DNA of 64,000 bases from NCBI RefSeq assembly GCF_900176365.1, contig NZ_FWXY01000002.1:186001-250000 (forward strand), in the 5' to 3' direction. Under the pieces are notes generated by a model, which was not told the DNA's origin, searched no databases, and saw nothing but the letters and a program-made list of their open reading frames with translations. The DNA comes from Desulfocicer vacuolatum DSM 3385. Lineage in GTDB: Bacteria > Desulfobacterota > Desulfobacteria > Desulfobacterales > Desulfobacteraceae. Positions 1 through 61,630 of this stretch are shown piece after piece (position 1 is the stretch's first letter; every line of letters starts with the position of its first letter). Made by a program: the position numbers and the translations under genes.

Positions 1-62
1 CTCAATTGTCCGGTTCCTATTGCCCGTCGGGGGGCGGCTCTGCCTTAGCTTGCCTTGGAGGC
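1..62 (-). repeat. Family C hairpin repeat, copy C1 (cut by window edge)
   Basis: This is one arm of the family C hairpin described at 10737-10893, in reverse orientation. It carries the arm GACGGGCAAT (as its complement at about 20-29) and the conserved loop-side sequence, but the second arm lies before base 1. Bases 63-115, up to the nikO stop, hold only a short GGGGCAGACC stretch that resembles the end of family A. Confidence 0.7.
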
Positions 63-10589: not shown

Positions 10590-10737
10590 AGTTTCATTTT
10601 TCGTTGTGGGCAGGTCAAACCCCAATACGATCTGCCCGTGGCAGTTATATGAAATACTCCGCAAATCAGAGGTGTATTTCAAGCTTCGTTGTGGGCAGAA
10701 CCAGATCAGTACAAGGTCCGCCCGTGGCGGTTATATA
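10590..10737 (+). repeat. Family A repeats, copies A1 (right half) and A2 (full), in tandem
   Basis: Family A is about 90 bp, bounded by TATA-rich ends. Its left part GAAATACTCCGC...GGTGTATTTC is a hairpin, and its right part is a second hairpin, TGGGCAGA...TCTGCCC or variants, ending GTGGCAGTTATAT or GTGGCGGTTATAT. A1 (10590-10650) is only the right hairpin. A2 (10647-10737) is complete and shares the TATAT junction with A1. The pair lies upstream of the uspA-type gene and is followed at once by family C. Other copies: 15365-15454, 19140-19196, 29693-29780, 47551-47731, 61128-61218. Confidence 0.85.
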
Positions 10738-10893
10738 CAGGCAACCTAAGGCAGAGCCACCCCCCCCGACGGGCAATAGGAACCGGACAATTGAGCTGTC
10801 TACAGTTCCGGTCCGGGACCATTGCCCGTCGGGGGAGCGGCGGTATAATACCATTTGGCTCCGCGTCTACGACCCTATATTTATTGTGGGCAG
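10737..10893 (+). repeat. Family C hairpin repeat, copy C2 (complete)
   Basis: The core is a long hairpin. The outer stem is GACGGGCAAT (10768-10777) with ATTGCCCGTC (10821-10830), the middle stem CCGGAC/GTCCGG, and the inner stem CTGT/ACAG, flanked by runs of C on one side and G on the other. After it comes a conserved tail with GGTATAATACC and GGCTCCGCGTCTACGACCC. The same fold is present at 17130, 47733 and 61219 with paired base changes. No open frame is conserved. Together with A1 and A2 it fills the 400-base gap between the uspA-type gene and the dynamin-like gene. Confidence 0.85.
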
Positions 10894-15289: not shown

Positions 15290-15483
15290 GGCATTTTTCA
15301 TACAACGTCAAAAGTAGTTTACACCTTTCGATCAAATTTTTCCCGGAAAACGGGTATATTTTTCTATAACCGCCACGGGCGGACCGTATTCTGCTCCGGC
15401 TCTGCCCACAACGAAGTTTGAAATACTCCCCTGATTGGCGGAGTATTTCATATAAACGTGCAAACTGGAAAATGAATCATGTC
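15290..15483 (+). repeat. Family B element, copy B1, split by a family A element
   Basis: Family B has ends of the form GGCAT...TTCAT and ATGAA...CATGCC or similar. The left part of B1 (15290-15364) contains AAAGTAGTTTACACCTTTCG and CCCGGAAAACGGG. The right part (15455-15483) contains CAAACTGGAAAATGAATCA. In copy B2 (46406-46607) the same two parts join directly. Between them here is a complete family A element (15365-15454) with TATA at both junctions. The remaining stretch up to the dacB start at 15700 shows no further gene. Confidence 0.75.
15365..15454 (-). repeat. Family A repeat, copy A3, nested in family B
   Basis: A full-length family A element in reverse orientation: TATAACCGCCACGGGCGGACC at one end (15365-15385), and GGCGGAGTATTTCATATA at the other. 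It interrupts copy B1, with TATA on each side, so it entered B1 after B1 was in place. Confidence 0.82.
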
Positions 15484-16965: not shown

Positions 16966-17077
16966 CAGGATGTTTCAGGTGCCCCAGACAGAATGCGATC
17001 TGTCCTGAAAAAGCAGGTACTGGGTATTAGGTGCTGGATACTGGGTCTTAACAGCAACTACTTTTTCATTATTTGTT
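16966..17077 (+). repeat. Degenerate copies of the CAGTACC heptamer satellite
   Basis: About 17013-17038 reads, on the minus strand, as worn copies of the CAGTACC unit (CCCAGTATCC, CCTAATACCC, CAGTACC). The clean array is at 61547-61630, in the same place relative to a family C element. Just after the dacB stop a self-complementary stretch (TTTCAGG...CCTGAAA enclosing GACAGA/TCTGTC, 16976-17010) could form a hairpin, but it has no T run and is not a clear terminator. Confidence 0.5.
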
Positions 17078-17292
17078 GTGGCTGGAGGTTACAGCCATGT
17101 GGATTTTATTAGAAAATAAAACTTCCGGGTAACCTCAGCAGAGCCCCCCCGAGGGGCAATGGGAACCGGCCAATTGAGCTGTCTACAGTTCCGGCCGGGC
17201 CATTGCCCCTCGGGGGGGCGGCATAATACTATTTGGCTCCGCGTCTACGACCCTATATTCGTTGTGTCCGATAGAACATGTGGGTTATATAA
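17078..17292 (+). repeat. Family C hairpin repeat, copy C3 with extended left flank
   Basis: The left flank (17078-17130) contains GGTTACAGCCATGTGG and TAGAAAATAAAACTTCCGGG and is almost identical to the flank of copy C5 (61384-61440, other strand). The hairpin uses GAGGGGCAATGG (17151-17162) with CCATTGCCCCTC (17200-17211), and CCGGCC/GGCCGG in the middle stem. These differ from copy C2 in both arms at once, so pairing is kept. The tail with GGCTCCGCGTCTACGACCC (17236-17254) matches C2 exactly. It fills the gap between dacB and the 3' end of folE2. Confidence 0.85.
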
Positions 17293-29667: not shown

Positions 29668-29692
29668 CTTTAAACTTTTTTCTTCTTTTTTT

Positions 29693-29826
29693 TATATGAA
29701 ATACTCCGTGAATCAGGGGTGTATTTCAAACTTTGTTGTGGGCAGAGCCGGGTCAAAATACGGTCCGCCCGTGGCGTATTTTCCAGGCTTACCTCAGCAG
29801 AGCTCCCCCCCCGGGGGACGATGCTG
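29693..29826 (+). repeat. Family A repeat (A5) with a truncated family C piece, inside the ruvC-ruvA gap
   Basis: A5 (29693-29780) has both hairpins: GAAATACTCCGTG...GTGTATTTC, then TTGTGGGCAGAGCC...GGTCCGCCCGTGGCG. It is followed by 29783-29826, which starts like family C (TTACCTCAGCAGAGC then C runs) but breaks off before the hairpin loop and joins the end of ruvC. The insert sits between two genes of one operon. Confidence 0.8.
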
Positions 29827-46006: not shown

Positions 46007-46406
46007 ATTTCAAACAGGCGATGATATTTTTGAATGTACCCAGTGCGGGGAGTGTTGCCGGGGATTTGGCGGTACCTATGTCACCCCGGAAGACATTAAA
46101 CGGATTTCCAGGTTCATCAAGTGTGATCCTGACACCTTTGTCCCCCGGTTCTGTGACATGTCCGGCTCCCGGCCGGTGCTCACCCTTAACAAAAAAGGAA
46201 AGTGCGTTTTTTTTGATGAGCTGTGCACCATCCATGAAGTAAAGCCGTACATGTGCCGGGCCTGGCCCTTTATTCAAACCCTTGTGGATCATCCAGAAAA
46301 CTGGGAAGCCATGGCAGGCTCCTGTCCCGGAATGAAAAAAGGGATCCCGGCGGAGGCTATCCAGCGCATTGCAGCCCTGGAAATCAAAAAGCTGCAATCA
46401 TCTTAG
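45996..46406 (+). CDS. YkgJ family cysteine cluster protein
   Basis: A 136-residue protein of the YkgJ/putative zinc- or iron-binding family. Cysteines occur as CTQCGECCRGFGG (residues about 14-26), C...MSG, KGKCVFFDELC, and PYMCRAWPF, a layout suited to binding metal (zinc or Fe-S). Function is not known for the family, though many members are near redox or modification genes. The GTG start overlaps recR. Its stop codon lies at the left end of a family B repeat (46406-46607). Confidence 0.82.
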   Translation: MDCKFQTGDDIFECTQCGECCRGFGGTYVTPEDIKRISRFIKCDPDTFVPRFCDMSGSRPVLTLNKKGKCVFFDELCTIHEVKPYMCRAWPFIQTLVDHPENWEAMAGSCPGMKKGIPAEAIQRIAALEIKKLQSS

Positions 46407-46607
46407 GCATATTCATACAACTTCAAAAGTAGCTTAGAGACTCAGATCTTATTGTTTTACCATACCCAAATTGATATGTTTTATGGGTAAAATTTCGGGT
46501 AAACGGTAAATTGAAAACGGCTGACTCCCTTACACTTTTCGATCAAATTTTCCCGGAAAGTGGATATAGTTTTTTAAAAAAACGTAAACTGAAAAATGAA
46601 GCATGCC
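46406..46607 (+). repeat. Family B element, copy B2, with an internal insertion
   Basis: Ends are GGCATATTCAT (46406-46416) and ATGAAGCATGCC (46596-46607). The right part, TTACACTTTTCGATCAAATT with AAACTGAAAAATGAAGC, matches B1. Between about 46433 and 46530 lies foreign sequence not seen in B1 or B3, with TACC...GGTAAA pieces and no open frame. The element begins at the stop codon of the YkgJ-type gene. Confidence 0.7.
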
Positions 46608-47731: not shown

Positions 47732-47938
47732 CAAGGCAACCTCAGCAGAGCCGCCCCTCCGATGGGCAATAGGAACCGGACAATTGAGCTGTCTACAGTT
47801 CCGGTCCGGGACCGTTACCCATCGAGGGGGGGCGGCATAATATCATTTTCAATATTGGTTGTGTCCGTGGGGACATGCCCGTTTAATGGCGAACCAATCA
47901 CAGCGGTTCACATGGGTAAGCCGGACAGACACAATTAG
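47732..47938 (+). repeat. Family C hairpin repeat, copy C4 (tail replaced)
   Basis: The hairpin is GATGGGCAAT (47761-47770) against GTTACCCATC (47813-47822), with CCGGAC/GTCCGG inside. The conserved tail GGCTCCGCGTCTACGACCC seen in the other copies is absent and replaced from about 47840 by unrelated sequence. The rest of the gap to the CLC stop (47939) shows no gene. Confidence 0.8.
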
Positions 47939-58283: not shown

Positions 58284-58386
58284 GGCATCCTTCATATTGC
58301 CTAAAAAGTAGTTTACACTTTTGGGAAATTTATCCCCAAAATGGAGATATTGCTCTGAAAAGTGTGAAGCAAAGATGAAGGATGCC
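58284..58386 (+). repeat. Family B element, copy B3, with perfect 12-bp terminal inverted repeats
   Basis: GGCATCCTTCAT (58284-58295) and ATGAAGGATGCC (58375-58386) are perfect inverted repeats. Inside, ACACTTTT and AAAAGTGT pair as well, and TTTGGG/CCCCAAA form a hairpin, so most of the 103 bp is palindromic. It shares AAAGTAGTTTACACTTT with copies B1 and B2. It follows rsmB by 10 bases. Confidence 0.8.
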
Positions 58387-61218: not shown

Positions 61219-61440
61219 ACGGGCATCTCCTGTGGGACACAACAAATATAGGGTCGTAGACGCGGAGCCAAATGGTATTATACCGCCGCCCCCCCCGATG
61301 GGTAATGGTCCCGGACCGGAACTGTAGACAGCTCAATTGTCCGGTTCCTATTACCCATCGGAGGGGCGGCTCTGCCTTAGCTTGCCCGGAAGTTTTATTT
61401 TCTAATAAAACCCACATGGCTGTAACCACCAGCCACAACA
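61219..61440 (-). repeat. Family C hairpin repeat, copy C5 with extended flank
   Basis: On the minus strand the hairpin uses GATGGGTAAT and ATTACCCATC (61350-61359, 61297-61306), a full 10-bp pairing although two pairs differ from copy C2. The middle stem CCGGAC/GTCCGG, the tail GGCTCCGCGTCTACGACCC and the 50-base flank seen at 17078-17130 are all present. It lies between copy A8 and the heptamer array. Confidence 0.87.
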
Positions 61441-61546
61441 AACCAAGTCATGCCCCTTTAACAGCAAACATCTCTTATTTGCGATTTTCCAGATAAGGGT
61501 ATATACTTCTGTTGTGAATCGTAAATCTTTTATGTAAATATTCGCC

Positions 61547-61630
61547 CAGTACCCAGTACCCAGTACCCAGTACCCAGTACCCAGTACCCAGTACCCAGTA
61601 CCCAGTACCCAGTACCCAGTACCCAGTATC
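61547..61630 (+). repeat. CAGTACC heptamer tandem array
   Basis: About twelve head-to-tail copies of the 7-base unit CAGTACC. Eleven are perfect and the last ends CAGTATC. The array lies 30 bases before the start of the CBS gene, so it could affect its promoter. It shows a repeated tripeptide-like pattern in translation on the minus strand (WVLGTGY), but is not read as protein. A degenerate relative is at about 17013-17038. Confidence 0.95.

Follow-up and report, generated by a model that had tools for sequence, protein, structure and literature searches.

ERIC, BOX and Correia elements are roughly 100-200 nt long, intergenic and structured, and some of them are modular. IS200/IS605-derived miniature elements are hairpin units that follow Ts at the left end, lie in tandem at their own ends and leave no clear target duplication. 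REPINs, REP sequences and BIMEs (RAYT, TnpA-REP) are present as hundreds of extragenic palindromes per genome, folding as hairpins in a composite arrangement. Compensatory changes on both sides of the hairpin are described as common in REPINs (PMC3116915).

The current work concerns family C, a hairpin repeat recognised in a stretch of 64,000 nucleotides of the Desulfocicer vacuolatum DSM 3385 genome (the window), together with the simpler A-type unit that occurs beside it. C shares with REPINs the compensatory changes across the two hairpin sides and the composite arrangement, and is likewise high-copy, extragenic and palindromic (267 matches; gene overlap in 1 of 137 placed copies). It differs from them in length (C about 100 nt, its relatives about 180 nt), in joining a near-fixed apex to a variable lower stem, and in a modular order with TTGTTGTG junctions. 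Since no flanking Y1 gene was found and no GTAG stands at the foot of the hairpin, membership among the REPINs is not claimed; C is read instead as a mobile repeat that is non-autonomous, depends on its hairpin and works in the manner of REPINs, a reading to which we give a probability of about 0.55. The observed base of this reading is the copy number, the intergenic placement, the architecture, the drift with retained pairing and an A-type unit that interrupts a gene in a relative.

The traits of IS200/IS605-derived miniatures named above are also seen in C and A, but the ends of six IS200 loci from one relative (G029) are unrelated, no parent was seen among the examined Y1 genes, and C has no strand bias by GC skew. 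C is likened to ERIC, BOX and Correia by their general descriptions and not by sequence, and no Rfam family matched it. No paper in the open-access literature was recognised as dealing with this repeat. It looks like a new hairpin family of a kind, the small, hairpin-built and probably mobile repeats, that is already known in other bacteria.

Copies, modules and gene context

Within the window there are four complete C hairpins, a fifth that the left edge cuts and a remnant without its apex (Table 1). All arms quoted in the preliminary description were found in the sequence, and its observation that the two arms change together is confirmed and holds beyond the window. The count of four base pairs has to be amended, because the four changes fall on three pair positions, one of which changes twice. 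That comparison had also omitted C4, whose right arm, GTTACCCATC against GATGGGCAAT, has one mismatch and one wobble. The tail GGCTCCGCGTCTACGACCC, described as kept without variation in three copies, gave 3 matches in the window, all exact although up to 3 mismatches were allowed, versus 0 in 100 shuffles; genome-wide this constancy fails, the tail being present in 109 of 164 copies.

Table 1. Positions of C hairpins, A-type units and related long hairpins
Feature	Position in window (or locus)	Strand	Basis or remark
C1 hairpin, cut by window edge	1..40	-	Covariance model; whole copy G000:C63:185944-186040
Two A-type units or parts (TTGTGGGCAG...TCTGCCCGTGGCAGTTATA and neighbour)	10597..10735	+	Left of C2 module
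C2 full-length C hairpin	10754..10853	+	Covariance model R1, 115.8 bits
C2 hairpin arms	10761-10835	+	Quoted arms located
C2 optional tail GGCTCCGCGTCTACGACCC	10857..10875	+	Exact tail match
A-type unit	15365..15455	-	Repeat families I2, D6
C3 C hairpin, arms GAGGGGCAAT/ATTGCCCCTC	17136..17231	+	Covariance model R1, 101 bits
C3 hairpin arms	17144-17218	+
C3 tail	17235..17253	+	Tail match
A-type unit	29692..29779	+	Repeat family D1
C remnant: left flank ACCTCAGCAGAGC and bare stem base, apex lost	29791..29822	+	Repeat family D10
Two A-type units in tandem, left of C4	47551..47725	+	Repeat family D1
C4 C hairpin, without tail; right arm with one mismatch, one wobble	47748..47845	+	Covariance model, 103.9 bits
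C4 hairpin arms	47754-47828	+
A-type unit downstream of C5	61124..61219	-	Repeat families D6, I6
C5 tail	61251..61269	-	Tail match
C5 C hairpin, arms GATGGGTAAT/ATTACCCATC	61273..61372	-	Covariance model, 113.3 bits
C5 hairpin arms	61292-61366	-
Hairpins of about 180 nt	L276, L284, L287, L288, L290, L293, L296, L300, L304		In G053 and G057

Other repeats share the window. A second intergenic family (CATACAACGTCAAAAGTAGTTTACACCTTT...GATCAAATTTTTCCCGGAAAA), by eye unlike A or C, lies at 15290-15369, 46405-46579 and 58284-58360. A tandem 7-mer array, (CCCAGTA)n, occupies 61545-61628, with related text near 17020, and words resembling TACTGGG adjoin other repeat units in the window.

Across the 5.04-Mb genome, a 22-nt pattern of the C apex matched 267 times when up to 3 mismatches were allowed (137 on the + strand, 130 on the - strand); the reversed pattern has 0. 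The 164 distinct copies collected (61%) are not a random sample but consist of the first 100 listed places (exact apex, in contig order), further search hits and the window; diverged apices are thus under-represented among them. Nine shortened or divergent copies were dropped, leaving 155 full-length copies for the analyses of linkage, mismatch type and substitution rate. A reading of the apex as invariant was softened, the copies having been fetched with the apex as anchor: among 10 of the 94 places matching the 3' flank in this genome, 4 had the exact apex by eye, 5 a variant or deleted apex, and 1 no C hairpin.

C serves as a module, the one with the large hairpin, in a longer, dispersed composite repeat. 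The first reading of the window had overlooked this setting, which shifts the likeliest interpretation towards a mobile repeat. Read by eye, the order is Ts, TATAT, hairpin X or C, TTTGTTGTG, hairpin Y and CATGGCNGTTAT; judged by eye, the unit ends (TTTATAT... and ...GTTAT) do not form the terminal inverted repeats that a MITE would have.

By gene calls from a purpose-built hexamer model, 137 of the 164 copies could be placed, the other 27 being incomplete. Apart from the single overlap with a gene call, 31 copies lie between convergent and 17 between divergent genes, and between tandem genes the neighbours are on the opposite strand in 64 cases versus 24 on the same strand. In other genomes some units adjoin a ribosome-binding site directly upstream of it, a position that may explain the orientation bias against neighbouring genes. 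At convergent and divergent sites the GC skew was negative in 26 of 48 (p=0.67); the lagging-strand preference expected of IS200/605-type insertion is therefore not seen. For 37 left ends from other genomes, a set that includes at least one tandem unit missed by the filter, the three bases leading up to the unit were T in 76%, 97% and 100%, counted with no background control. In the own genome, the right flank of L001 and the left flank of L072 have similar gene ends, with C elements at nearly the same place in opposite orientation.

Fold and covariation of the two arms

A 171-nt consensus, typed by hand from the copies, folds as RNA at -91.2 kcal/mol (z = -7.7; 0 of 200 shuffles as good), with a predicted long stem, an apical GAGCUG/CAGUUC helix and a UCUA loop. 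The DNA strand of the window also folds better than its own shuffles (z -4.0). Selection on a folded RNA in transcripts, acting through stability, termination or protein binding, would account for so stable a fold, for a lean of the + strand to G.U, and for the near-fixed apex GAGCTGTCTACAGTTC, in which a G.U pair is present in 164 of 164 loop-anchored copies. Such an RNA role is nevertheless rather improbable, as tandem neighbour genes more often read the other strand (64 versus 24), Rfam gave no match, and a dispersed copy number in the hundreds suits a repeat better than a regulator.

At the main variable pair of the lower stem, 157 copies have T-A (73), C-G (56), G-C (8), T.G (11), G.T (1) or other combinations (8). 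Copies with arms changing independently would have spoken against the preliminary description, and here 149 of 157 remain Watson-Crick or G.T. The second variable pair (159 copies) has C-G 108, T.G 35, T-A 7, G.G 5, C.A 3 and G.T 1. Among 48 diverse copies, standard pairs fill 96.5% of the pair cells and the covariation score was matched by 0 of 500 shuffles; sliding the 3' partner by 1-3 columns lowers the score from 0.083 to 0.005-0.027, in a test that favours the tested structure over the slid versions because it came from the consensus.

Matched arms could also arise if a few matched-arm master copies had simply multiplied, and subfamily descent does hold for the C3 type. All 10 copies with the outer G, among 164, also have the middle-stem C, and columns 33 and 56 are linked (V 0.65); the pair changes noted in C3 are real, but not independent of each other. 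The left flank and tail also occur in discrete versions. For the two main alleles the evidence points the other way. In the 155 full-length copies, the T/C and A/G alleles of the main pair are coupled with r2 0.675, while column 94, the tail and the version of the left flank are close to linkage equilibrium: neither with one another nor with either variable pair does their r2 exceed 0.014. Column 94 lies between the arms, at a distance of ten bases from one of them, and gives r2 of 0.000 and 0.001 with the arms of the main pair. Some weak linkage occurs at other pairs of sites (r2 up to 0.12), and an association of column 94 with column 104 (V 0.43) is seen once every allele and all 164 rows are included. 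T.G makes up most of the variants at the second pair, which is therefore coupled only weakly (r2 0.049). When the 2850 column pairs are ordered by corrected mutual information, the main pair comes second, in the company of neighbouring left-flank and 3'-flank columns, and the remaining varying stem pairs rank 31, 36 and 172; only one pair stands out strongly genome-wide. Any shuffling of copies by the draft assembly of 80 contigs should have weakened the coupling of the arms as well. Since the arms of the main pair are coupled while sites beside and between them are unlinked, its covariation is mostly not a product of descent, and descent as the only cause is very improbable.

The main rival to a mobile, hairpin-dependent repeat is correction during replication, in which one arm of a quasi-palindrome templates the other without selection and the repeat is junk DNA. 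It predicts coupling of the arms independent of other sites, as observed, and would produce the flips with no wobble intermediate seen in the long hairpins described below (G-C/C-G, A-U/U-A), as well as the occurrence of T-A, C-G and G-C at one C pair. Arm copying should remove G.T and A.C mismatches alike, yet among transitions leaving mismatches, with the fixed apex G.T excluded, 69 G.T, 36 of them at one pair, and 16 A.C persist; these counts are not independent events, as copies share alleles, and with the two multi-allele pairs excluded they become 22 versus 11 (p=0.08). Nor does arm copying alone explain why the stem evolves more slowly than the tail, the transition rates per site being 2.4-6.3% in the tail but 0.4-0.9% in the stem once its two most variable pairs are set aside. 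We consider this alternative unlikely, though the strongest of those weighed here.

The excess of G.T over A.C is a weak hint that the + strand is the one that folds. Six unpaired-looking 5' columns lean the opposite way (G>A 9/465, C>T 1/155). In the tail, C>T (0.0386) and G>A (0.0387) are about equal; T>C (0.0629) drives the low Fisher p (9e-5), which was given no weight.

Relatives in other genera and A-type units

The apex pattern at 3 mismatches is absent from 85 other genomes of the bacterial family (the control gave 1 match, in G014), but a view of C as unique to its own genome was overturned. A covariance model gave 5 weak matches in 3 other genomes (G053, G057 and G066), and the matches in G053 and G057 share the C flanks. 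The G066 match (L267) has no C flanks and proved on inspection to be an unrelated palindrome. The pattern of the C 3' flank occurs in 4 of 86 genomes including the own, with 19 matches in G053, 8 in G057 and 1 in G006; no C hairpin stands at the G006 match.

Inspection of 19 loci in G053 and G057 found nine single hairpins of about 180 nt, four short perfect or near-perfect palindromes and six reduced, shortened or other forms. The 267-nt stretches with the long hairpins fold at -137.5 to -167.4 kcal/mol and share the apex GCGCAGGCTGTTTGAGGA...AGTTCCTGCGC, with ACGCAGG in one copy. In the nine long copies (8 distinct), paired according to the structure of a single copy among them, standard pairs fill 96.4% of the pair cells, 20 cells are changed on both sides, and none of 500 shuffles equalled the covariation score; the pairs changed on both sides (63 of 500) and the further pair types (275 of 500) are not above shuffles. 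Two other genera also have C types, whose stems are different but paired, and this argues further against descent alone. Together with the r2 of 0.675 at the main pair, they bear out the earlier claim that pairing is kept while the sequence drifts. The wider interpretation offered with that claim stands in part: pairing through drift holds, and it may reflect selection on RNA, selection on a single-stranded DNA substrate or copying between arms.

By its motif, the simpler A-type unit is widespread in the bacterial family. The A-type 3' motif (up to 2 mismatches) was found in 22 of 86 family genomes including the own, with 349 matches in the own genome, 78 in G056 and 31 in G018; a control pattern gave 2 matches over the 86 genomes, so lone matches may be chance, and L165 looks coding. 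A stricter pattern was found in 7 of 291 genomes of the order including the own, two of them in other families. The variable pair of the A-type units is Watson-Crick in 178 of 197, with all four types seen, in a set fetched by motif-like patterns, by one BLAST query or as neighbours of C. A glycosyltransferase gene of G026 is split by an A unit, while the homologous genes of G017, G030 and G013 run without a break, so such a unit can enter a site by insertion. Here 0 or 2 duplicated bases would fit, and no clear target-site duplication is seen.

Transposases, databases and the spread of the repeat

None of the four Y1_Tnp genes of the own genome is directly flanked by C or A. Near one of them a C composite lies about 0.6-0.8 kb off with an ORF between, and the stretches examined around the other three hold no C composite. 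In six relatives, 30 Y1 loci were scanned (of 49 matches); an A-type 3' motif was seen in 9 of them, two of which are one place, and at no constant position. Among the loci examined, in a search limited to Y1 transposases, no parent transposon with the same ends was found. The ends of the six IS200 loci of G029 were compared by eye and differ. GTAG is absent from the hairpin foot in the 164-copy consensus read by eye; on the - strand it is present inside the apex and inside the optional tail. One locus of the own genome (L065, G000:C63:42500-62400) has three Y1_Tnp genes of two types, and two near-identical ORFs about 6 kb apart that we take to be nucleotide-sugar dehydrogenase-like.

At the gathering score of Rfam, the window gives 3 tRNA matches only and six loci with A or C-type elements give none; no match was seen for the three hairpins of about 180 nt that were covered. 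Phages have no match for the C region, viral contigs none for the C apex or the long-form apex, and plasmids and phages none for one relative of about 180 nt.

According to the preferred reading of C as a mobile repeat, a transposase acting in trans on one folded strand would spread it, with insertion after Ts and beside the repeat's own ends; neither excision nor transposition was seen to occur. Copies with unpaired arms would not be propagated, and their loss would keep the arms matched while the sequence drifts; the apex, if it is what is recognised, would stay nearly fixed. A broader proposal, which is unlikely, is that the C and A modules are one cassette-like hairpin family, present in this bacterial family and beyond and reaching hairpins of about 180 nt. 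Its modules would be reshuffled to linkage equilibrium tens of bases apart, its arms would be matched by the requirement for a folded strand, and some enzyme outside the known Y1 REP transposases would mobilise its copies.

Several hundred copies in one genome make an unusually clean natural experiment, in which the unlinked sites show that coupling at the main pair reflects base pairing and not descent. With the relatives in other genera, selection on a folded strand could be told apart from copying between arms, and the repeat may point to a mobilising enzyme in these bacteria.

The 3' flank of C (window 10843-10856), GGTATAATACC / GGCATAATACCATTTTC, is well conserved across three genera, and many copies have a -10-like TATAAT word there.
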